This document shows positions 7,596 through 49,983 of a stretch of 64,000 bases of DNA, one piece after another (within the stretch, counting starts at the first letter, position 1; each line of letters starts with the position of its first letter). The notes under the pieces were generated by a model. The model ran no database searches and was not told the DNA's origin. It saw only the letters and a program-made list of their open reading frames with translations. This stretch comes from Campylobacteraceae bacterium (GTDB taxonomy: Bacteria > Campylobacterota > Campylobacteria > Campylobacterales > Campylobacteraceae), in assembly GCA_031263195.1 (NCBI GenBank), contig JAISGD010000026.1, forward strand, positions 1 to 64,000. The letters run 5' to 3'. The translations under genes and the position numbers were made by a program.

Positions 7596-9551
7596 ATGAA
7601 CTCCAAAAAAATTTTAAAAAAGCAAGCCGATACGATTCGTTTTTTATCTGCTGATATGGTTCAAAAAGCAAATAGCGGACATCCGGGAGCTCCGATGGGA
7701 CTTGCCGATATCGTGACGGTTTTATCTTACCACTTGCGTCACAATCCGACAAATCCCAAATGGCTAAATCGCGATAGACTTGTTTTCAGCGGAGGTCACG
7801 CTTCTGCGCTCATATATTCGTTTTTGCATTTAAGCGGTTACGATATTGCCATAGAAGATTTGAAAAACTTTAGACAGCTTGGAAGCAAAACGCCAGGACA
7901 CCCGGAATACGGCGAAGTTGTTGGAGTGGAAGTGACGACAGGACCTTTAGGGCAGGGGGTCGCGAATGCCGTAGGATTCGCGACCGCCGCCAAATACGCT
8001 TCAAATATACTAAACACGGATAAAACTAAAGTTATTGACCATAAGGTTTATTGTTTGTGCGGCGATGGGGATTTGGAAGAAGGCATTAGTTACGAGGCTT
8101 GTTCATTTGCGGGACATTTGGGGCTCGACAATCTCGTTTTAATTTATGATTCTAACAATATAACCATAGAAGGCAGCGCGTCTTTGGCGTTCAGCGAAGA
8201 TATCAAAAACAGATTTGAGGCGCAAGGCTGGAAAGTTTCAAAGATAAACGGACACGATTTCGATGAGATTGAAGAGGTTTTAATGCATTCAAAAGAGCAG
8301 ACAAAACCATATCTTATTATAGCCGACACCGTTATTGCCAAAGGCGCATGTAAGCTTGAAGGAAGCCATGAAGCTCATGGCGCGCCGCTTGGAGTTGAAG
8401 AGTTAAAAAATGCCAAGATGAAGGCGGAATTTGATTGTGATAAATCCTTTTTTATACCTGACGATGTAAAAGATGAATTTTTCAAAGCAAAAACAGCGGG
8501 AGAGAAGGCGGAAAAAGAGTGGATAGAAAAGCTTGAGACAAGCCTCACGGCAGATCAAAAAGAGATATTAAATAAGCTTTTGAAACCCGATTTTAACTCT
8601 ATTAAATGGCCCAAGTTTGAACCTAAAAGTGAAATTGCAACAAGAGACAGTAATGGAAAAATTATCAACGAAATCGCAAAAGCGCTTATAGGATTTTTGG
8701 GCGGAAGTGCAGATCTCGCTCCGTCAAATAAAAGCGAGTTAAGCGGTATGGGAAGTTTTCCAACAGGACGCAATATCCATTTTGGCATAAGAGAACACGC
8801 TATGGCGGCTATTTGCAACGCTATCTCTTTGTACGGACTATTTTTACCTTACAGCGCGACATTTTTTATATTTAGCGATTACTTAAAGCCGTCCGCAAGA
8901 CTTGCTGCTTTGATGAGATTGAAAACATTTTTTATTTGGACACACGATAGCATAGGAGTAGGCGAAGACGGACCGACGCACCAACCCATAGAACAACTTA
9001 CGCAATTTCGCGCTATGCCAAATTTTTATGTATGGCATCCTGCTGATGCTAATGAAAATGTGGAAGCTTGGAAAAAAGCTCTAAACACGAATGCTCCGAG
9101 CGCGTTTGTGCTGTCAAGACAAAAACTTACCGTATTTGAGGATACCGGAGATTTTGGGGATGCAAGTTGCGGCGGATATCTCTTGAAAAAAACGCAAAAC
9201 GCAAAAATCACGTTTATCGCAAGCGGAAGTGAAGTCGCTCTTTGCTTGAAAGCAGCGCATAGGTTGAAAGACGATGGCATAGAAGCCAATATTGTGAGCG
9301 TGCCGTGTTTTGATTTATTTATCGAACAATCCAAAGAGTATATAGAAAAAGTGATAGACAAAAACACGAAAGTTTTAGCTGTGGAAGCGAGTTCAGGCGA
9401 TGTTTGGTGGAGATATGCGGATAATGTTGTGTGTATGAATAGTTTTGGCGCTAGCGCACCCAGCGAAAAGCTTTTTGAAAAATTTGGCTTTAGCGTAGAA
9501 AACGTGGTTAAAGAAGCGAAGGAGTTATTGGGGTGCGCATATGGAGTATAA
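7596..9551 (+). CDS. tkt: Transketolase
   Basis: Thiamine-diphosphate enzyme of the non-oxidative pentose phosphate pathway; it moves two-carbon units between sugar phosphates. The N-terminal AANSGHPGAPMG-like block (KANSGHPGAPMGLAD), the TPP motif CGDGDLEEG, and the C-terminal half with FGIREHAMAAI and HDSIGVGEDGPTHQP are all present. The 651 residues match the family. It starts 10 bases after ispA and overlaps the next small gene by 11 bases. Together with the transaldolase domain at 16 kb it supplies the pentose-phosphate carbon shuffle. Confidence 0.97.
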   Translation: MNSKKILKKQADTIRFLSADMVQKANSGHPGAPMGLADIVTVLSYHLRHNPTNPKWLNRDRLVFSGGHASALIYSFLHLSGYDIAIEDLKNFRQLGSKTPGHPEYGEVVGVEVTTGPLGQGVANAVGFATAAKYASNILNTDKTKVIDHKVYCLCGDGDLEEGISYEACSFAGHLGLDNLVLIYDSNNITIEGSASLAFSEDIKNRFEAQGWKVSKINGHDFDEIEEVLMHSKEQTKPYLIIADTVIAKGACKLEGSHEAHGAPLGVEELKNAKMKAEFDCDKSFFIPDDVKDEFFKAKTAGEKAEKEWIEKLETSLTADQKEILNKLLKPDFNSIKWPKFEPKSEIATRDSNGKIINEIAKALIGFLGGSADLAPSNKSELSGMGSFPTGRNIHFGIREHAMAAICNAISLYGLFLPYSATFFIFSDYLKPSARLAALMRLKTFFIWTHDSIGVGEDGPTHQPIEQLTQFRAMPNFYVWHPADANENVEAWKKALNTNAPSAFVLSRQKLTVFEDTGDFGDASCGGYLLKKTQNAKITFIASGSEVALCLKAAHRLKDDGIEANIVSVPCFDLFIEQSKEYIEKVIDKNTKVLAVEASSGDVWWRYADNVVCMNSFGASAPSEKLFEKFGFSVENVVKEAKELLGCAYGV

Positions 9552-15335: not shown

Positions 15336-15407
15336 ATTTTTATCCGCTTTTTAATATAGATTTTAGTATTATATCAGAAAATTAAGATGAGAATTAGGAA
15401 ATATGGG

Positions 15408-16028
15408 ATGAAACTCGCGGCTTTTGATTTTGACTCTACGTTAATGGATGGAGAGACAATCAATTTTTTAGCGGATGCTTATGGGGTGGGCGATGAGGTA
15501 ACGAAGCTTACCGCTGAAGCGATGAGAGGTGAGATAGATTTTTTTGAGGCATTAAGAAAAAGAGTCGCTCTTTTGAAGGGTATGAGTGAGAAAAACGTTA
15601 TAAGCATATGTGAAGATTTGCCGTATATGAACGGAGCGAAAGAGTTAATCAAAGAGCTTCAAAAACGCGGTGTTACAGTTGTGGTGTTTAGTGGCGGGTT
15701 TAGATATGCTACGAATTTTGCAAAAAAAATTTTAGGATTTGACGCTGATTTTGCAAATGTTTTACATGTGAAAGACGGCATTCTTACAGGACTTGTCGGG
15801 GGTGATATGATGTTTGGTTTTTCTAAAGGCGATATGCTTTTGAGAATACAGGCTCTTTTGAAGGTTAGCAAAAGAGAAACTATATCGGTAGGTGACGGGG
15901 CGAATGATGCTTCAATGTTTGAGCTTTCTGCGGTGAAAGTCGCGTTTTGCGCTAAAGATATTTTAAAAAGCAAAGCGAACGTAATCATTGATGAGAAAGA
16001 TTTAACAAGAGTTTTAAACCATATTTAA
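15408..16028 (+). CDS. serB: Phosphoserine phosphatase
   Basis: HAD-superfamily enzyme for the last step of serine biosynthesis. It shows DFDSTLMDGET (motif I with the nucleophile Asp), VVVFSGGF (motif II Ser) and VGDGANDASM (motif III/IV). At 206 residues it lacks the N-terminal ACT-like extension of some homologues, usual in this group. The frame is open from an ATG at 15387; the ATG at 15408 has AGGAA upstream and begins directly at the conserved strand, so I prefer it. It ends ten bases before the transaldolase fusion gene. Confidence 0.92.
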   Translation: MKLAAFDFDSTLMDGETINFLADAYGVGDEVTKLTAEAMRGEIDFFEALRKRVALLKGMSEKNVISICEDLPYMNGAKELIKELQKRGVTVVVFSGGFRYATNFAKKILGFDADFANVLHVKDGILTGLVGGDMMFGFSKGDMLLRIQALLKVSKRETISVGDGANDASMFELSAVKVAFCAKDILKSKANVIIDEKDLTRVLNHI

Positions 16029-16038
16029 AGGATGTTAG

Positions 16039-18570
16039 ATGGCAATCGGTTCAAGCAATTTTTCCATTTGGTGTGATTTTATAGAGAGAGAATTTCTGTC
16101 AAGCGAGCTTCCGGCGCTTATTGATTCGGGTATAGTAAGCGGTGTCACGAGCAATCCGGTTATCTTTAAAAACGCTATTTTAAACTCTAAAGCATATGCG
16201 GAAGACAGAAAAAAGAGTATAGATATGCTGCCGCAGGAGAGATATGAATTTTTGGCTGTAGATGATATTAAAAATACTGCCAAACTTCTTTTGCCGACAT
16301 ATAAAGCGGATAATCAAGACGGGTTTGTAAGTATGGAAGTAAATCCGTTATTTTCCGCAAATACTGAAAAAATGGTAGAAGAGGCAAAGAGGATTTATAA
16401 AAAAGTGGGTATGCCTAATGTTATGATAAAGATTCCGGCGACAGAGGCAGGATATGAGACAATAAAAGAGTTGATTATAGAAGGTATAAATGTAAACGCT
16501 ACCCTTGTTTTTTCTCCACAGCAGGCAGGTAAATGTCTTCAAGCGATAGAGAACGGATTTTACATATTTCAGCGCAGAAATCCGAAAAAAGCATTTCCTC
16601 AAGTTGTTATCAGTGTTTTTGTAAGCCGTTTTGACAGGAAATTGGACGCAAGATTGGAGACGGTCGGATTTGAAAAAATGAAGTTTGGCATTATGAACGC
16701 TTCGTATATCTACCAACTTATCAGAGAACAGAAAATCTCTAATGTAAGGTGTCTTTTTGCGAGTACAGGCGTTGGAGATCCGTCTATTGATAAATACTAT
16801 TATATTACGAGTTTAATGTATAAAAATGCTGTTAACACTGCTCCTTTAGCCTCTATAGAGAGTTATATGGAAGTACTTGATACAGACGAGAGAGTCTGTC
16901 CGCCCAAAGAAAATATTCAAAAATATTTTGCGGATATAGAGTCAAGAGGTATTATATTAAAAGAAGTATATACTTCGCTTCTTGAAGAAGGATTGGAGCA
17001 ATTCAACAAAGCTTATAGAGAGATGCTGGAGAGTTTAAGAGTGACAAATCAGGAGATTGAAGAGTTAAAAGTGGCGGAAAGAGCCGAACAGGAGCGTATA
17101 GAGTTTGAAGCGAGGAGAAAAGAGGATGAGATGAAAAGAGCAGAAGAGGCTAAAAAAACTGCGCAAGAGGCTGCACAGAGAGCTGAGAAGGAGAGATTGG
17201 AGAAAGAGGCGCGCGAAAAAGCGCTTGAAGATTTAAAAAAACAGACGGCTGTTGCTCAAGCAAGTGAAGAAGTTAAAAGTAAAAAAGGTGCGGAAGTGAG
17301 CGTTGATGTTAAAATCAATAAAGCCTCAAGAGCCGAAGCAAGAAGAGCTGCCGCTCAGGAGCGCTACAAAAGTCCGGTTATGAGAGTGCTGGAAGGATAT
17401 CTGAAAGATCTCACTTCGTATAATGGAAGCGATTTGCATATAAAATCAGACGCTGCCGTTAAAGGACGTGTGAATGGAGAGATTGTAACTGTGAGTAATA
17501 CCATCTTCAAAAAAGAAGAGGTAGATATCTTAGCAAGAGAAATTTTGCAGGACAGATATGAAGAGTTTACAAAGAAAAAAAATATAGATTTTACTTACAA
17601 GCTTGATGAGGATTATCGGTTTCGTGTCAATATGTTTTATCAAACAGACGGTATTTCGCTGGTATTTCGTGTAATTCCGCTGAATATTCCCAGTGTTGAA
17701 GAGCTCGCTTTGCCACTTATCATAAAAGAGTTTGCAGCTAAAAGAAGAGGGCTTGTGTTGGTGACGGGACCTACCGGAAGCGGTAAAAGCACCACTTTAG
17801 CGGCTATTATAAGCCTCATAAATCAGATAAGCCAAAAGCATATTATTACTATCGAAGACCCTATAGAGTTTATCTACAAAGATGAGCAGAGTATCATCAA
17901 TCAGCGCGCTATAGGACAGGATGCGGTTAGCTTTTCGGATGCTCTTATAGCATCTTTAAGAGAAGATCCGGATGTGATTATGGTGGGTGAAATGAGAGAC
18001 GTAGAGACAATCAGAACGGCGATTCGCGCGGCGGAAACGGGACATCTTGTGCTTTCTACATTGCATACGCTTGATGCTAAAGAGACGGTAGGGCGCATTA
18101 TCAGCATGTTTGACGGTAACGAGCAAGTTCAGATTCGCCACTCGTTGGCTTCTGTGCTTCAAGCAGTTATTTCGCAAAGGCTTGTAAGGCGTAAGGATGA
18201 CAAAGGAAGGATTGCGGCTATTGAAATTTTGATTAAAAACGAACGTATAGAAGCGATGATAAAAGAAGGCAGAGAGGATGAGATAAAAGACTCTATCGAA
18301 GACGATAGTGATGTTTACGGTTCGCAGAGTTTTAATCAATCGCTGCTCGATCTTTACATTAATGATTTTGTTAGTTACAATGAAGCGCTTTATGCGGCTA
18401 CATCGCCTACTGATTTGAAAATTCTGCTTGACAATTACGATATAGAAAGACATACGGGTATTAAGCGAGGCGGCACGAGAAGGCGTATCGATTTTGATGA
18501 TGACGATGAGATAAGCGAGAATGTAACGGTTGATTTGGACGACGACGACATTTTATCATTGAAGCGGTAA
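16039..18570 (+). CDS. Transaldolase-coiled coil-PilT/PilU ATPase fusion
   Basis: One uninterrupted 843-residue frame. Residues 1 to about 333 are a complete transaldolase, with GVTSNPVIF, the Schiff-base lysine in NVMIKIPAT (K131), VNATLVFSP and a C-terminal LLEEGLEQF. Residues about 335-440 are a Lys/Glu/Ala-rich coiled coil. Residues about 445-800 are a retraction-type pilus ATPase: SDLHIKSDAAVKGRVNGEI, Walker A GPTGSGKST (577-585), VIMVGEMRD (646-654) and a His box ending LSTLHT. The C-terminal part (EGREDEIKDSIEDDSDVYGSQSFN in part, then ISYNEAL-like and DLKILLDN) is more like PilU than PilT. An acidic tail (DFDDDDE, DLDDDD) ends the protein. Transaldolase is normally a separate soluble enzyme of about 325 residues. 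AAAGGA lies before the ATG. No stop or frameshift separates the halves. Confidence 0.93.
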   Translation: MAIGSSNFSIWCDFIEREFLSSELPALIDSGIVSGVTSNPVIFKNAILNSKAYAEDRKKSIDMLPQERYEFLAVDDIKNTAKLLLPTYKADNQDGFVSMEVNPLFSANTEKMVEEAKRIYKKVGMPNVMIKIPATEAGYETIKELIIEGINVNATLVFSPQQAGKCLQAIENGFYIFQRRNPKKAFPQVVISVFVSRFDRKLDARLETVGFEKMKFGIMNASYIYQLIREQKISNVRCLFASTGVGDPSIDKYYYITSLMYKNAVNTAPLASIESYMEVLDTDERVCPPKENIQKYFADIESRGIILKEVYTSLLEEGLEQFNKAYREMLESLRVTNQEIEELKVAERAEQERIEFEARRKEDEMKRAEEAKKTAQEAAQRAEKERLEKEAREKALEDLKKQTAVAQASEEVKSKKGAEVSVDVKINKASRAEARRAAAQERYKSPVMRVLEGYLKDLTSYNGSDLHIKSDAAVKGRVNGEIVTVSNTIFKKEEVDILAREILQDRYEEFTKKKNIDFTYKLDEDYRFRVNMFYQTDGISLVFRVIPLNIPSVEELALPLIIKEFAAKRRGLVLVTGPTGSGKSTTLAAIISLINQISQKHIITIEDPIEFIYKDEQSIINQRAIGQDAVSFSDALIASLREDPDVIMVGEMRDVETIRTAIRAAETGHLVLSTLHTLDAKETVGRIISMFDGNEQVQIRHSLASVLQAVISQRLVRRKDDKGRIAAIEILIKNERIEAMIKEGREDEIKDSIEDDSDVYGSQSFNQSLLDLYINDFVSYNEALYAATSPTDLKILLDNYDIERHTGIKRGGTRRRIDFDDDDEISENVTVDLDDDDILSLKR

Positions 18571-18634: not shown

Positions 18635-19171
18635 ATGTTAGAGGGCATACTAAGAGAGAGTATCGATAGAAAGGCGTTAAAAACGCTTAGACGAGATGGT
18701 TATCTGATTGCCAATATTTACGCAAAAGGCTTTGAGAATATCCACGCAGCATTTAAAGAGAATGAGTTTATAAAAGTTGTGCGCAAAAAAGACGGGCTTG
18801 TTTTTCCTGTGAAAATCGGCGAGAATGTTTATAGTGTGGTTATACAAGAGTATCAAAGAGAGCCTGTTAGCAATAAATTTTTGCATGTTGATTTGAAAGT
18901 AGCGCTTCCCGGCGTTGTTACAAAATATATGGTGCCTGTAGTTATAAATGGTACGGCAAAAGGTATCAAAGACAAAGGTGTTTTAGTGATATCAAAACGA
19001 AGACTTGGCGTAAAATGTACTGTTGAAAATCTTCCAAACGCTTTTGAACTTGATGTAAGCGACCTTGGAGTGGGAGATTCGCTGCTTGTAAGAGATATTA
19101 GAGTAAGTGCGGATGTAAAAATAGTAGAGGCGGATAGAGTTGCCGTTGTAGGCGTTATCAAAGCGCAATAG
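18635..19171 (+). CDS. rplY: 50S ribosomal protein L25/general stress protein Ctc
   Basis: Binds 5S rRNA in the large ribosomal subunit. The 178-residue length places it in the longer Ctc form with a C-terminal TL5-like domain. The start [31 protein letters not shown] corresponds in layout to the L25 N-terminal domain; [10 protein letters not shown] and the [20 protein letters not shown] region mark the second domain. It follows a probable promoter and begins the rplY-pth-permease series, a conserved order in Campylobacter. Confidence 0.93.
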
Positions 19172-19179
19172 TAAAACAT

Positions 19180-19749
19180 ATGTTTTTGTTTGTGGGTCTT
19201 GGAAATCCTGCCGAGAATTACGCAAACACACGACATAACATAGGCTTTAAAGTGATAGAGTCATTAAGCGTTCACTTTAAAGCTTCTTGCATTTTAAAAC
19301 CCCAATTTTTCGGCGATTTGTATAAAATTCAAAATACTCTTTTTTTAAAACCAATGACATATATGAATAATTCCGGTAAAAGTGTTGGCGCTGTTGCTAA
19401 TTTTTATAAGCCGCGAGAGATAGTTGTCATACACGATGATATAGCCATACCTTTTGGTAGTGTGCGTATAAAACGCGGCGGTTCGGACGGGGGACATAAC
19501 GGGTTAAAGTCTATTGATGCATACATAGGGGCGGATTATATAAGGGTGCGTTTAGGTGTTGGTGCGCTGAAAGCAGAGCAGGATGCCGCCGGTTTTGTAT
19601 TGTCAAACTTTTCCAAAGAGGAGAGCAGCTGCGTTTTGAAGCTTATAGATTACGCTGCAATTATCTGTGAAGAATTGCTTGTAAAAAGCCTTGATGAGGT
19701 CAACAGGCAATATACCAGCAAAAAAGGGATTTGTGCAGGCAATGGTTAA
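19180..19749 (+). CDS. pth: Peptidyl-tRNA hydrolase
   Basis: Releases tRNA from peptidyl-tRNAs that drop off ribosomes. Signature blocks are FVGLGNPAENYANTRHNIGF (catalytic His in RHNIGF, Asn in GNP), KPMTYMNNSG, VIHDDIAIPFG (Asp) and KRGGSDGGHNGLKSI. Length is 189 residues. The start is eight bases after rplY; the 3' end overlaps the permease start by eight bases. Confidence 0.96.
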   Translation: MFLFVGLGNPAENYANTRHNIGFKVIESLSVHFKASCILKPQFFGDLYKIQNTLFLKPMTYMNNSGKSVGAVANFYKPREIVVIHDDIAIPFGSVRIKRGGSDGGHNGLKSIDAYIGADYIRVRLGVGALKAEQDAAGFVLSNFSKEESSCVLKLIDYAAIICEELLVKSLDEVNRQYTSKKGICAGNG

Positions 19750-26757: not shown

Positions 26758-27603
26758 ATGAAAGAGCAGGCGCAGATTAATAGAAAAAACCCAACAGCGT
26801 TTCTGTTTGTTGTAGACCAATCGCTTTCTATGGGATATATAATGCCCGCGGTTAATAAACCGAAAGCTAAACATGTGTCCGATGTTATCAATAGAACCAT
26901 CCTCAATCTAATAGACCTTTGCAATAAAGCCGATGGCGTAAGGGACTATTTTTATGTAGGTATTATCGGATATAACGGCAGAGGTGTAAAAAATGCGCTT
27001 TTTGATGAACAGGATAAGGATATATTAAATTCCATATCGCAAGTTGCCGATAATGTAAAAAAGATAGAACACATAGTCGAAAAAGTTGACAACGGTCTTG
27101 GCGAAATAGTGGAAAAACATATAGAGTTTCCGGTATGGATGGAACCTGATGCAGATGGCGAAACACCTATGTGCGAAGCTTTTGAATTAGCCAAGAATAC
27201 GCTTGATGAGTGGTGTAAAAACAACCCTAACTCTTATCCGCCGACACTTATACATATTACAGACGGCGATTCCACAGACGGTAATCCGGAAGAGATAGCC
27301 GAAGATATTAAAAAACTTTGCACGCTTTACGGCAATGCGCTTATATTTAATTTGCACGTAAGTTCGTTTGACGCCAATACTATAGAGTATCCTTTCAGCG
27401 ATAATAATATTACCGACGAGTATGCGAAAATGCTCTTTAAAATGTCAAGCGTATTTCCTGAAAATTTGATAGGTAAAGCTAATGACAGAGGATATAGAGT
27501 CGTCAATAATTCAAGAGGTTTTATATTTAACGCAGATGCTGTCGATGTCGTAAATTTTCTCGAGATAGGTACGCTGCCGACAAATCCATTTAAAAGACGA
27601 TAG
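26758..27603 (+). CDS. von Willebrand factor A protein, TerY/YegL-like
   Basis: A 281-residue VWA protein. The metal-ion adhesion site is complete: DQSLS (D20, S22, S24), a Thr in DGETPMCEAF, and the Asp in HITDGDSTDG. There is no signal peptide or membrane segment, so it should be cytoplasmic. It is the first gene of a three-gene operon with a PP2C-like phosphatase and a kinase-like protein. That trio resembles the TerY-phosphatase-kinase triads described around tellurite-resistance-type systems and E. coli yegL-yegK-yegI. The role of the VWA protein there is thought to be scaffold or sensor. The client is unknown. Confidence 0.85.
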   Translation: MKEQAQINRKNPTAFLFVVDQSLSMGYIMPAVNKPKAKHVSDVINRTILNLIDLCNKADGVRDYFYVGIIGYNGRGVKNALFDEQDKDILNSISQVADNVKKIEHIVEKVDNGLGEIVEKHIEFPVWMEPDADGETPMCEAFELAKNTLDEWCKNNPNSYPPTLIHITDGDSTDGNPEEIAEDIKKLCTLYGNALIFNLHVSSFDANTIEYPFSDNNITDEYAKMLFKMSSVFPENLIGKANDRGYRVVNNSRGFIFNADAVDVVNFLEIGTLPTNPFKRR

Positions 27604-27614
27604 GATATGGGTAA

Positions 27615-28355
27615 ATGGAGCTACTATTTTGCGGCTCAATACCTAAAAATGATTGTAAGCCATGTGAAAATGAGGACTATTATAATATAGGTGCATCTGG
27701 GCAGAATGTGCGTATAGCTGTCAGCGATGGCGCTACTATTTCATATGACTCAAAAAATTGGGCAAAAAGTCTGGCTGACTATTTTGTGCAAAAGGGCGCT
27801 ATCTCAAACAAAAATATGAACAGGCTCATCAAATCCTATTACTCCGGCTACTCAAATCGATTTGATTTTAAAAATTTAACACTTTTTCAGCGGCGTGGAC
27901 TTAGATTTGGCAGTTATGCGACCATACTTGGTGTAGAGTATAATTTTAACTCAAATCTAATGCAACTTGTCGGTGTTGGGGATAGCGTCGCTATTTTATT
28001 GGATAATTATACATTTGTGGACTCTTTTCCTTACTCTTTCGCAAAGGATTTTAGAAAAAATCCGAAACTTTTGAGTGCCAAAAAAAAGCACAATTACTTC
28101 TTTTCACACTCGAAAGAGTATGGCAAGTTTTATAAACTATGGGAACTTTCATCTATTTGTCAGCCTGTACTGCTTTGTATGACGGATGCGCTTGGAGAGT
28201 GGGCGTTCAAAAGTTATGAAAGCGGTAATGCAAATGTATGGAAGGAGCTTGCAGGTATAGCCGGTGTGAGAGATTTTAAGAGATTTGTTGATAAAAAGCG
28301 AGCCGATGGGATTATGAAGATAGATGATACTACGCTTATTTGCATGAAGTTCTAA
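27615..28355 (+). CDS. PP2C-like serine/threonine phosphatase
   Basis: A 246-residue protein of the PP2C superfamily in a divergent form. Metal-site motifs are NEDYY near residue 21, IAVSDGATIS (D38, G39), VGVGDSVAILL, CMTDALGEW and IDDTTLICM, in the expected order. It lies 11 bases after the VWA gene and nine before the kinase. An overlapping ATG at 27607 is in another frame and runs to an early stop; the frame at 27615 carries the motifs. It probably reverses phosphorylation by the downstream kinase. Closest in layout, as far as I know, are the YegK-type phosphatases. Confidence 0.8.
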   Translation: MELLFCGSIPKNDCKPCENEDYYNIGASGQNVRIAVSDGATISYDSKNWAKSLADYFVQKGAISNKNMNRLIKSYYSGYSNRFDFKNLTLFQRRGLRFGSYATILGVEYNFNSNLMQLVGVGDSVAILLDNYTFVDSFPYSFAKDFRKNPKLLSAKKKHNYFFSHSKEYGKFYKLWELSSICQPVLLCMTDALGEWAFKSYESGNANVWKELAGIAGVRDFKRFVDKKRADGIMKIDDTTLICMKF

Positions 28356-28364
28356 AGGATAAAT

Positions 28365-30419
28365 ATGTCGTCAAGTTACCCAAATTCAAATGAATACAGA
28401 GCAGCTTTTCAGTATGTGAAAGAGAGTTTGACAGATCCTGTTTTGAAAGAGGGCATTGTTAAAACAAATTCGCTGGGACCGCAAGTATTCAGCGGTAATT
28501 TTGCTTATGCATATGAGATTACTTCTCAATACAGGATAAAATATGCCGTGCGTTGTTTTCGTTACCCTTCGAGAGACCGTGAAGAGCGTTATGTTGCCAT
28601 ATCAAAATTTTTGAAACATTTGAAATCCTACTATTTTGTCGACTTTGAGTATCAATCTGACGGTATTACTGTCAGTGGCATAAAATATCCTATTGTAAAA
28701 ATGGCATGGATAGACGGCGTTTTGTTGGGACAGTTTATATCGGAAAATTACTCTAATAGGCGCAGGCTTAAAAATCTCATAACATCTCTTATCGCACTTG
28801 CGAGATTTATCGAACATAGTGGGTTAGCGCATGGTGATATACAAACAGGTAATATCATCGTAAATAATGACGGCAGGGATTTAAAGCTTATAGATTATGA
28901 CGGCATGTATGTAAGAGATATTAAAGAGTTGGGCAATTGCGAATGCGGCACACCGAATTTTCAACATCCGCAAAGAGGTAACGCTTGGAATGCAAAGTTG
29001 GACAGATTCTCGTTTATCTGCTTGTATGTCGCTCTTAATGCGCTTATAGAGCAGTACTCTTTATGGGAAGAGTTATCGTGCGACGAGGAGTCTATACTAT
29101 TTGTTACTTCGGATTATGAAGATACAAAAAATTCAAAAGCTTTTCATAAATTAATGCAGATTGAAAATATGAAAGAGGATGCACAAAAGTTTAAAAGAAT
29201 CTGTGAAGCTCCTTTTGACAAAATCCCCTCGCTTGATGATTTTATTGCCGGCGATAATATACCCAATTACTATCATACAAGTAAATTTGTATATTTTGCG
29301 AGCGCTATTATATTACTTGTTGCAGGTGTGGTCTATTTGCTGGAAAATGGTTACACGATTGATACTATATATCAAAAAACAGGCGCAAAAGAGCAAAACA
29401 TGAAAACGGTTAATGAGTTGCAAAAGGAAGCGGCGATAAATATATACAGCGTGCGAGATTATACCGATACGATTAGACAGCTTGATGATTTGCATATGCA
29501 GTTGCCAAACGATAATGATATACGGCTGTTATCTGCCATGACATATGCCGTAAGCGGTTATGACGATGCCAAACTCTCGGCACTTATTACGCCGCTGGAA
29601 GCGAAAAAAATGGAGGATTCAAGACTCTATTTTGTTTTGGCAGTTCTTTATTGGCGTAAAAATGATATGCAAAATGCGAAGTATTATGTAGATTTGACAA
29701 AAAATGACATGCATATGGACAGTAAGTTAAAAAGGCTCTCAATTTCATTTGCCGATATTATCGATATACAGCTAAACGCCTACAATCGTCATAAAGATGC
29801 TTTTAATGGTAAAGACAACGATATATTTGCTGAAGCGATGGTTTTATGGGAAAATAATTATGCACTGAAAGAGTATTTTGAAGAGATATTTTTGGACGGA
29901 TTTATCGGCTTTTCCAACGAATATGAATTTAATATTGAGCATCAATCATTTGCGGAGTGGTTTGATGCTTATGCAAGTTATAATATGGGTAAAGGATTGA
30001 AATCGCTCATAAAATTATATGATCGACACCCTAAAAACGCACAGCTTTTATATTTGATAACGACTAATATTGCTAATCTTTATATCGAAAACAGTGAAGG
30101 TAAATGCTATTTTCGCCGCGATAAGTATTTAAAAGTTGCCAAAGAATTCGGTGAAGAGTTGGCAGTAATCAACGCTAAAAGAGCTATAGATTTTGCTAAA
30201 GAGTTAGCTGAATTGCCTTTTTCGCAAACTCAAAGTTACTATGCTCTTGCCCTTGCGTATTATGCGAACGGCGAGCTTGATATTGCCGCCGGTATCGCAA
30301 ATATCGCTAAAACAAAATTAACAAATGAGGATTCAAACGAAATACGAGAAAAGATTGCAGCGCTTCTTATCCATATAAATGACAGTATTGCATGCAGGTC
30401 TAATAGTAAAACGCAATGA
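28365..30419 (+). CDS. Membrane-anchored kinase-like protein with helical-repeat tail
   Basis: A 684-residue protein. Residues about 35-290 form an Hanks-type kinase fold: HGDIQTGN (catalytic D158, N163) and DYDG in place of DFG (177-180), then CGTPNFQHP as the activation segment. The glycine loop is weak (SGNFAYAY), and the usual VAIK lysine aligns with Arg in YAVRCF (R63), so activity is uncertain. One membrane helix spans about 308-326. The remaining 350 residues are alpha-helical with TPR/Sel1-like pairs (YFVLAVLYWRKNDMQNAKYY, SYYALALAYYANGELDIAAG) and should lie outside the cytoplasm. E. coli YegI-type kinases instead carry other C-terminal domains. It ends the trio; leuA converges downstream. 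Confidence 0.8.
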   Translation: MSSSYPNSNEYRAAFQYVKESLTDPVLKEGIVKTNSLGPQVFSGNFAYAYEITSQYRIKYAVRCFRYPSRDREERYVAISKFLKHLKSYYFVDFEYQSDGITVSGIKYPIVKMAWIDGVLLGQFISENYSNRRRLKNLITSLIALARFIEHSGLAHGDIQTGNIIVNNDGRDLKLIDYDGMYVRDIKELGNCECGTPNFQHPQRGNAWNAKLDRFSFICLYVALNALIEQYSLWEELSCDEESILFVTSDYEDTKNSKAFHKLMQIENMKEDAQKFKRICEAPFDKIPSLDDFIAGDNIPNYYHTSKFVYFASAIILLVAGVVYLLENGYTIDTIYQKTGAKEQNMKTVNELQKEAAINIYSVRDYTDTIRQLDDLHMQLPNDNDIRLLSAMTYAVSGYDDAKLSALITPLEAKKMEDSRLYFVLAVLYWRKNDMQNAKYYVDLTKNDMHMDSKLKRLSISFADIIDIQLNAYNRHKDAFNGKDNDIFAEAMVLWENNYALKEYFEEIFLDGFIGFSNEYEFNIEHQSFAEWFDAYASYNMGKGLKSLIKLYDRHPKNAQLLYLITTNIANLYIENSEGKCYFRRDKYLKVAKEFGEELAVINAKRAIDFAKELAELPFSQTQSYYALALAYYANGELDIAAGIANIAKTKLTNEDSNEIREKIAALLIHINDSIACRSNSKTQ

Positions 30420-48051: not shown

Positions 48052-49983
48052 ATGCCAATTGCTTCTGTCTCTCCCATTGAAGTATGTTTTACAATTAACG
48101 ATCAATATGTTAAACATGTAGTGACAACTATCTACTCCATATTGCATTCAAATCAAAAAAATGTTTTTCGTTTTTATATCGTATGTAACGACTTGTCTCG
48201 AGACAGTCGTTCGTCATTTTCACATCTTTCATTTCGTTTTAAAAATCGCTGTTTTTTCGAATACTGTATTGTCGACTCATCGCTGTTTTCGGATGTAAAA
48301 TTGACTATCGATTATATTTCGATTCAGACATATTATCGCTTTGTGCTTGCCGATCTTTTTCCTAAATCGGATAGAGTATTGTATCTTGATGCGGATATTT
48401 TAGTGCAAGGCGATTTATCTGAACTTTGGAAGACTAAACTTGAAGACAGTTATGCTGCCGGCGTTGCCGATATGTATATTGATTTGATTGATTATAAAAA
48501 AGAGATTGGTTTTGATAAAAATGATCTTTATGTCAATGCAGGAGTTATACTTTTCAATTTGGCTGCCATTAGGCAAGACAATATGCAAAAAAAGCTTTTA
48601 TCAGCAACAAAAGAGTTATCCCAAAAGGTCAAGTTTCAAGATCAAGATATCATAAATATCGTATTTAAAAATAGAATAAAAGCTATTCCGGACAAGTTTA
48701 ATTTCGCGGCAGATAATATGTCAAGATATCCGGAACAAATAGATTCGGCTGTTATTCTTCACTATAACGGCAGCAGAAAACCTTGGCATAAAAAGAAAAA
48801 TCGTCCCGGATATAGTCAATATTACAAGATAGATAAGTTAGCGCATGAAAAAATTCGCGTGGCTTTATTAATAGACGAGTTTTTTGGCGGAGCAGATACA
48901 GCTTTTGGAGAATACGGTTTTTTAGCGCGCAGGTATATAACAAAATATATTCCTTGCGCCGATATTGAGATAGACGTGCTTCTTGGAAAAAGTAAAAGGC
49001 ACTTTTTTGCTCAGAAATTTTCAGTTGACGGCACAGCTTTATATCGTTTACCAAGACGTATAGTTGCCGCAAAAAATTGGATAAAACGTAAAAATTACGA
49101 CATATATCTTAGTATAGAACTTACTAAAGATCATGTTTTAAGGTGTGAGAGCAATCCAAACAAAAAACTTATTTTATGGATACAAGATCCGCGACCAAAA
49201 TATGAGTGGGATGAGATTAATACGGTGAAGTTTTTGCCTGAAATTTGTTATTACAATCAACGAGTTTATGATTCGGTGCATGAGTGGCAAAGACAAGGGC
49301 ACGTACATTTTATATCCCAAGCTTATTATTTAAATCCTAAAGCTCGCGATTTATACAGGCTGCCTTTTGATACAACAATAAGATATTTACCAAACCCCAT
49401 AGAGATAGACAGCTCTTTTGATGTTGAAACCTATCCTAAAAAAAATAATATTATTTTTCTGGGCAGAATTGAGTCTGTAAAAAGAGGATGGTTATTTTGT
49501 GAAATAGCAAAGAAAATGCCACAGTATAATTTTTACATGATCGGTCAAACTTTTATGCAAAAAGATAAAAATTTTGCTATTATCAATGAATATAAAGATA
49601 TTCCAAATCTATATTTTACTGGACATTTGGGCGGTGAGGAAAAAATCAAACATTTGAAAAATGCAAAGGTTTTGATTAATACGTCAATACACGAAGGTTT
49701 GCCTATATCTTTTTTGGAAGCTTTATCTTACGGTACACTAATTGTAAGTAATCGCAATCCTGAAAATTTAACCGAAAAGTTTGGAGTGTGGGTTGGAGAT
49801 GTTTTGGGCGATGGATTTGATAAAGTTGATTTATATATAAAAGGCATAAAAAAATTAATGGATGACGATAAAAAGAGAATTGAGTTAGCAAAAGAGGCGA
49901 TTGATTATATAAAAAATGTGCACAATATTCCAAGATTTATTAATGATTTGCGAAATGTAATTTTTGAAGAGATACATAAGTAA
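48052..49983 (+). CDS. Bifunctional GT8-GT4 glycosyltransferase
   Basis: A 643-residue protein with two catalytic domains. Residues 1 to about 265 are GT8 (LgtC/WaaJ-like): IEVCFTINDQYVKHVVTTI, VLYLDADILVQGDLSELW with DxD, YVNAGVILFNL, and HYNGSRKPWH. Residues about 275-640 are GT4-like (GT-B fold): VALLIDEFFGGADTAFG, IIFLGRIESVKRGW, NTSIHEGLPISFLEALSYG with the acidic E-x7-E type pattern. Two separate enzymes normally do these jobs. Donors for GT8 are usually UDP-glucose or UDP-galactose. It is the last gene of the plus-strand cluster. Confidence 0.85.
   Translation: MPIASVSPIEVCFTINDQYVKHVVTTIYSILHSNQKNVFRFYIVCNDLSRDSRSSFSHLSFRFKNRCFFEYCIVDSSLFSDVKLTIDYISIQTYYRFVLADLFPKSDRVLYLDADILVQGDLSELWKTKLEDSYAAGVADMYIDLIDYKKEIGFDKNDLYVNAGVILFNLAAIRQDNMQKKLLSATKELSQKVKFQDQDIINIVFKNRIKAIPDKFNFAADNMSRYPEQIDSAVILHYNGSRKPWHKKKNRPGYSQYYKIDKLAHEKIRVALLIDEFFGGADTAFGEYGFLARRYITKYIPCADIEIDVLLGKSKRHFFAQKFSVDGTALYRLPRRIVAAKNWIKRKNYDIYLSIELTKDHVLRCESNPNKKLILWIQDPRPKYEWDEINTVKFLPEICYYNQRVYDSVHEWQRQGHVHFISQAYYLNPKARDLYRLPFDTTIRYLPNPIEIDSSFDVETYPKKNNIIFLGRIESVKRGWLFCEIAKKMPQYNFYMIGQTFMQKDKNFAIINEYKDIPNLYFTGHLGGEEKIKHLKNAKVLINTSIHEGLPISFLEALSYGTLIVSNRNPENLTEKFGVWVGDVLGDGFDKVDLYIKGIKKLMDDDKKRIELAKEAIDYIKNVHNIPRFINDLRNVIFEEIHK

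Follow-up and report, generated by a model that had tools for sequence, protein, structure and literature searches.

Results

Fused gene and its neighbours

The window analysed here is a stretch of 64,000 nucleotides from a Campylobacteraceae bacterium. On its forward strand a fused tal-pilT2 gene was located at 16039..18570, coding for a protein of 843 aa. Reading of the open frame yielded 843 codons without a stop between the ATG, with AAAGGA just before it, and the terminal stop codon, in agreement with the single frame of this length described in a first-pass annotation. The upstream neighbour is the gene of a SerB-like phosphatase (15387..16028, forward strand), whose stop is separated from the fused gene by 10 nt. 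On the downstream side the same strand carries the genes for a 178-aa protein, ribosomal protein L25 (rplY/Ctc; 18635..19171), and for a peptidyl-tRNA hydrolase (pth; 19180..19749). All three neighbours were assigned by eye. In G023, the genome of a second genus with the fusion, a SerB-like gene is likewise found upstream, and rplY and pth follow downstream in the same order.

The window protein was modelled by AlphaFold2 with a 68-row alignment of this protein and proteins of related loci. Two confident domains were predicted, with pLDDT mostly above 90. The pTM of the model was 0.52, thus the relative placement of the two halves is not fixed in it.

Two further observations were made in the window. 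At 26758-30419 three consecutive genes encode a von Willebrand A-like protein, a PP2C-type phosphatase-like protein and a kinase-like protein whose C-terminal part is long. Pfam matches in this triad were under the cut-off; the phosphatase-like protein had no Pfam match and its resemblance was seen by eye. The triad resembles TerY-type vWA/phosphatase/kinase triads. At 48052-49983 a 643-aa protein is encoded that consists of a family 8 glycosyltransferase (residues 11-248) and a group 1 glycosyltransferase (residues 456-616).

Transaldolase half

Residues 9-332 (16063..17034, forward strand) form the transaldolase domain according to Pfam, NCBIfam and the predicted fold. Pfam TAL_FSA matched residues 10-332 with 239.5 bits (cut-off 27). 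With the NCBIfam transaldolase model NF003026 389.8 bits were obtained against a cut-off of 344, covering model positions 3-323 of 323. The Schiff-base lysine K131 (16429-16431, forward strand) was identified by alignment; together with D13, N39, E100, N153, T155, S192 and R197 it was invariant in nine diverse transaldolases, the window protein included. The roles of these active-site residues are assigned as in the transaldolases of E. coli and N. gonorrhoeae. A complete transaldolase with K131, as first read from the DNA, was thus recovered by both models above their cut-offs.

No other transaldolase was found in the window genome, which lends indirect support to an active transaldolase half. 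A transketolase-like gene was read by eye at 7596-9551, Rpe and RpiB are present in the genome, and for glucose-6-phosphate dehydrogenase no match was detected there. This gene content (Rpe and RpiB present, glucose-6-phosphate dehydrogenase not found) points to the non-oxidative pentose phosphate pathway as the likely context of the transaldolase half.

ATPase half and pilus machinery

The PilT/PilU-family retraction-type ATPase domain comprises residues 446-806 (17374..18456, forward strand), as indicated by NCBIfam, motifs and the predicted fold. Pfam T2SSE matched residues 443-725 with 180.3 bits (cut-off 24.9). TIGR01420 (PilT/PilU) gave 418.3 bits against a cut-off of 319.1 over model positions 2-342 of 343, and the family match spans residues 443-791. 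Walker A (residues 577-585; 17767-17793), Asp box (602-611; 17842-17871), Walker B (643-654; 17965-18000) and His box (667-677; 18037-18069), all on the forward strand and recognized by motif, are conserved in 14 fusions, with Walker A as GPTG[SC]GKST. Hence, the early description of a complete retraction-type ATPase with Walker A, Walker B and His box holds. The same applies to the claim that neither half has lost catalytic residues, as active-site residues and ATPase motifs are intact.

The C-terminal AIRNLIRE motif of PilT is absent from the fused ATPase; in the alignment NERIEAMIKEGRE (18238-18276, forward strand) stands in its place. AIRNLIRE was described for PilT and is absent from PilU, which functions only together with PilT (PMC6762196). 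A stand-alone PilT (PilT1) of the window genome (L142:2394-3470) carries PAIANLIRE and reached 357-366 bits with PilT of Geobacter, Aquifex and Pseudomonas. Like PilU, the fused ATPase is therefore a PilT paralogue that lacks AIRNLIRE and co-occurs with a stand-alone PilT. The whole domain gave 254-298 bits with full-length PilT structures and 238 bits with P. aeruginosa PilU. For the C-terminal part alone the scores were 61 with Thermus PilT, 53 with the PilT/PilU-family chain 10my, 48 with P. aeruginosa PilU and 27 with P. aeruginosa PilT. The former label "PilU-like" fits regarding the missing AIRNLIRE, but the closeness is loose and the best solved match is PilT2 of Thermus. On these grounds we label the fused half a putative PilT2/PilU-type accessory retraction ATPase and second PilT-family paralogue.

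The window genome contains a pilus-type cluster (L143:262-6497) with a secretin, an AAA ATPase, a PilB-type ATPase and a PilC/GspF-type protein, a separate type II secretion-like cluster (L153:3883-14206) and, at L154:2271-3387, pilin-like genes that adjoin a primosomal helicase-like gene. Thus, a machine exists on which the fused ATPase could act. An orphan ATPase in a pilus-less cell was considered and rejected, since pilins, PilC/GspF, PilB-type ATPases and secretins are present.

Linker and C-terminal tail

The halves are joined by a variable charged linker, residues 335-443 (17041..17367, forward strand), delimited by sequence and model. AlphaFold2 predicted a continuous helix for residues 337-402 (17047-17244, forward strand), whose length would be ~10 nm at 1.5 A per residue, and disorder for residues 403-427 between this helix and the ATPase domain. 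Across the fusions the linker length ranges from about 45 to 136 residues, and the sequence aligns poorly between subclades. A charged coiled coil of about 100 residues had been proposed here, of which the charge was found and the coiled coil was not: in all 14 linkers the count of hydrophobic residues at heptad positions a and d was never above shuffles (p 0.11-0.99). With hydrophobic residues lacking a heptad preference throughout, a coiled-coil linker was rejected. Opposite charges in i/i+4 spacing exceeded shuffles (p <= 0.003) in all nine linkers of the main subclade, including that of the window protein. This excess was absent from the linkers of G004, G009, G012, G013 and G023, though these are charged. 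By charge pattern, and for the window protein also by its predicted helix, the linker of the main subclade is of the single alpha-helix type and not a coiled coil.

The continuous frame might nevertheless give rise to two proteins, either through proteolysis or because translation also starts inside the linker, and the fusion would then be mostly formal. Internal ATGs with Shine-Dalgarno matches of 3-6 bases occur in most members, e.g. an ATG 14 codons before GSDLHIK. However, no candidate start with a good Shine-Dalgarno match is shared in position by all members, and the purine-rich Glu/Lys codons yield such matches by chance. We regard a mostly formal fusion as very improbable and prefer a two-enzyme protein. 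Some separate PilT2 may also be made, as the linker holds starts with weak Shine-Dalgarno sequences and such linkers may be protease-prone.

The protein ends in a disordered acidic tail (18457..18567, forward strand; sequence and AlphaFold2). The acidic tail was already noticed at first reading; it is predicted to be disordered from residue about 810, with a final short helix at 836-842. Its end is the conserved peptide DDILSLKR (18544-18567, forward strand), recognized by sequence comparison. Across Campylobacterales, PilT2 proteins, fused or separate (tails of L017-L141 included), mostly possess a disordered, often acidic tail with an end peptide such as DDILSLKR, DIFALK or DVFAFK. The pattern hydrophobic-hydrophobic-x-hydrophobic-Lys was present in 70 of 91 PilT2 tails versus 0.8 expected from shuffles, a contrast that is optimistic because the pattern was written after inspection of the tails. 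The stand-alone PilT1 of the window genome ends differently. The peptide looks like a possible docking motif for a partner. To our knowledge, it has no previous description.

Distribution of the fusion

Genome search and reading of the DNA revealed the stop-free fusion, with a size of about 790-870 aa, in all 12 assessable congeners (G001-G010, G012, G013); in the congener G011 the contig ends within the locus, and this genome was left out of the set. A fusion of 770 aa, likewise without stop, was found in the second genus, which is represented by one genome (G023) of 66% completeness; several other genomes are also incomplete. The same domain order, for which a search in relatives had been suggested, thus occurs in 12 congeners and in G023. 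Two metagenome-assembled genomes (MAGs) titled Campylobacteraceae bacterium, JAIRKW010000097.1 (Cc175_bin2) and JAITNC010000162.1 (Po218_bin111), contain the same fusion. The bin codes Cc175 and Po218 resemble those used in gut surveys of termites and Cryptocercus, and we presume hosts of this kind. A gut survey of the termite/Cryptocercus kind is described in PMC9137090; the prefix JAIRKW was not found in its main text.

In a survey of the family (153 genomes, transaldolase in 152) no extended tal frame (> about 380 codons) was detected beyond the window genus and G023 among the matches listed. The same was true, apart from the window, for the matches listed from 160 genomes drawn evenly across the order, and no extended frame occurred in 78 further loci from named records. 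In general, roughly 275 other Campylobacterales genomes were surveyed and no extended transaldolase frame was seen among the matches listed. Open-frame values of 700-750 pointed to additional fusions in G022, G055, G042 and others. These candidates were rejected, as each one examined has a tal stop; the values mislead because this measure reads through stops.

The genomes are draft assemblies and several are MAGs, hence a missed stop or a frameshift was considered, for which no positive support was found. In contrast, 14 separately assembled genomes carry the stop-free fusion and coding-type selection extends into the linker. With this agreement an assembly or sequencing artefact was rejected; its probability is negligible. 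The first-pass annotation had named two observations that would speak against the fusion, a stop in an independent assembly and separate genes in all near relatives. Both were looked for, and neither was encountered.

Separate tal-pilT2 pairs and trees of the halves

Among the loci examined, 76 carry adjacent but separate tal and pilT2 genes, 14 carry fusions and 28, contig ends included, show no pilT2 beside tal. The tal-pilT2 neighbourhood is old and retained across many families. Both genes are in the same frame in 26 of the 76 separate pairs, and the tal stop mostly lies 0-12 nt before the pilT2 start. At locus L017, of the same family, the stretch between tal and pilT2 reads ...TAA GGAGACACT ATG. 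Separate transaldolases end near residue 334, where the fused domain also ends. Given this end and the close spacing of the in-frame pairs, one stop-codon substitution suffices for a fusion. A selected read-through of adjacent genes had been put forward from the sequence; the origin from adjacent genes agrees with the in-frame pairs and is plausible.

No pilT2 was present within about 4 kb downstream of tal on the same strand at L105, L076, L083, L099, L081 and L101, whose records are titled C. jejuni, H. pylori, Helicobacter, Malaciobacter and Arcobacter. Gene order at these loci suggests that pilT2 was repeatedly lost or moved elsewhere, with tal remaining in place.

Mapping of the fusion on a tree, as had been advised, was done with quick, midpoint-rooted trees of each half. 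The fusions group in a single clade, with an SH-aLRT of 99 in the tal tree and 100 in the pil tree, which fits one fusion event. The placement of G023 within this clade, on a long branch, differs between the two trees.

For the transaldolase and the ATPase halves dN/dS was about 0.03-0.08 where dS was not saturated, and clearly higher for the linker; these are crude NG86 estimates with dS often near saturation. Both domains are, judged by these values, under strong purifying selection. A decayed half was rejected, as motifs are intact and dN/dS is low.

Discussion

The window gene probably encodes a genuine two-enzyme protein that would have arisen by a single stop-loss fusion of an old operon pair and whose halves would work largely independently. 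The ancestral state would be the old, tightly packed tal-pilT2 pair. Loss of the tal stop codon would have been a single event in an ancestor shared by two uncultured Campylobacteraceae genera. By this loss the short intergenic stretch, together with the PilT2 N-terminus, would have turned into the beginning of the linker, which was presumably lengthened later by charged low-complexity sequence. As the genomic context explains the fusion, no metabolic link to pili is needed for its origin.

Regarding function, the transaldolase half would run the non-oxidative pentose phosphate pathway, as expected from its family. From its family membership the PilT2 half would form a hexamer and serve in retraction as an accessory ATPase next to the stand-alone PilT1, in the manner of PilU or PilT2. 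With a hexameric PilT2 half, each ATPase ring would carry six transaldolases, attached by tethers that are flexible or a single helix, and both activities would proceed largely independently. A fixed inter-domain contact is unlikely because length and sequence of the linker change between subclades. Most likely, the halves act independently on the tether.

A selected functional coupling of the halves was also considered. The tether could place the transaldolase at the pilus base, or binding of sugar phosphate could alter PilT2 activity, and the pilus motor would sense or be fed by pentose phosphate metabolism. The old tal-pilT2 neighbourhood, kept in many families, is consistent with coupling, but the order of rplY and pth is likewise kept; adjacency alone thus need not mean function. 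The fusion was kept throughout the diversification of the genus without a reversal seen, and both domains are still constrained. However, fused genes are locked together anyway, because the fused transaldolase is the only one. The linker stayed charged while its length changed, yet its variation between subclades (about 45-136 residues, and in sequence) argues against a fixed geometry, and with a pTM of 0.52 the domain placement is not fixed in the model. No result directly favoured the tie of pilus function to sugar-phosphate state that the first-pass annotation had offered as one possibility. In total, we consider selected coupling unlikely. It is similarly doubtful that a retraction ring with six active transaldolases couples pentose phosphate metabolism physically, perhaps allosterically, to retraction, with the order-wide tal-pilT2 neighbourhood as its older, looser form. 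The order-wide pair poses the question of a functional link or operon inertia.

The preferred stop-loss origin offers a clean natural case of bacterial gene fusion on one branch, with the unfused arrangement kept in relatives and the fusion fixed through the diversification of a genus. If the fusion is made whole, each PilT2 subunit can bear a passenger at its N-terminus, a point of use for ideas on the seating of retraction rings on the pilus machine. The domain architecture, an enzyme of central metabolism joined to a type IV pilus motor, is new to us and was not found in the searchable literature. The initial statement that no described protein joins the two agrees with our literature search, in which, with subscription journals thinly covered, no paper on a transaldolase-pilus fusion was found.

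Comparison with known systems

The transaldolase half shares its fold with the N. gonorrhoeae enzyme 3CLM (TM-score 0.84 on target, Foldseek). It belongs to the NF003026/PRK03903 type, which it matches over the full length and above the curated cut-off with the catalytic residues kept. Unlike transaldolases of the 3CLM type, it makes up the N-terminal half of a protein of 843 aa. At the position of Cys38 in the gonococcal transaldolase, a residue that takes part in a redox switch, the window protein has Ser. The bifunctional transaldolase/phosphoglucose isomerase (NF007080) also combines two enzymes in one larger protein, with a transaldolase in the N-terminal half. The partner there is another enzyme of sugar-phosphate metabolism, whereas that of the window protein is a pilus motor, and the window protein scored 231.7 with this model, far under the cut-off of 712.

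Single alpha-helix linkers are exemplified in PMC12203971. The window linker is likewise rich in Glu/Lys/Arg/Ala, with an excess of opposite charges at i/i+4 and a continuous predicted helix. This pattern is confined to the main subclade; linkers of the other subclade and of G023 are charged without it.

For the ATPase half the best solved match by sequence and fold was PilT2 of Thermus thermophilus (5FL3), with 46% identity and a TM-score of 0.91 on target (Foldseek). Both proteins are without a clear AIRNLIRE and keep an [ST]F[ND]Q..L element, but Thermus PilT2 stands alone, without a transaldolase. PilU of P. aeruginosa (9N32) is, like the fused ATPase, a retraction-type paralogue without AIRNLIRE beside a canonical PilT, and the C-terminal domains are similar. 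Overall, the fused ATPase is no nearer to PilU than to PilT (238 versus 254-298 bits).
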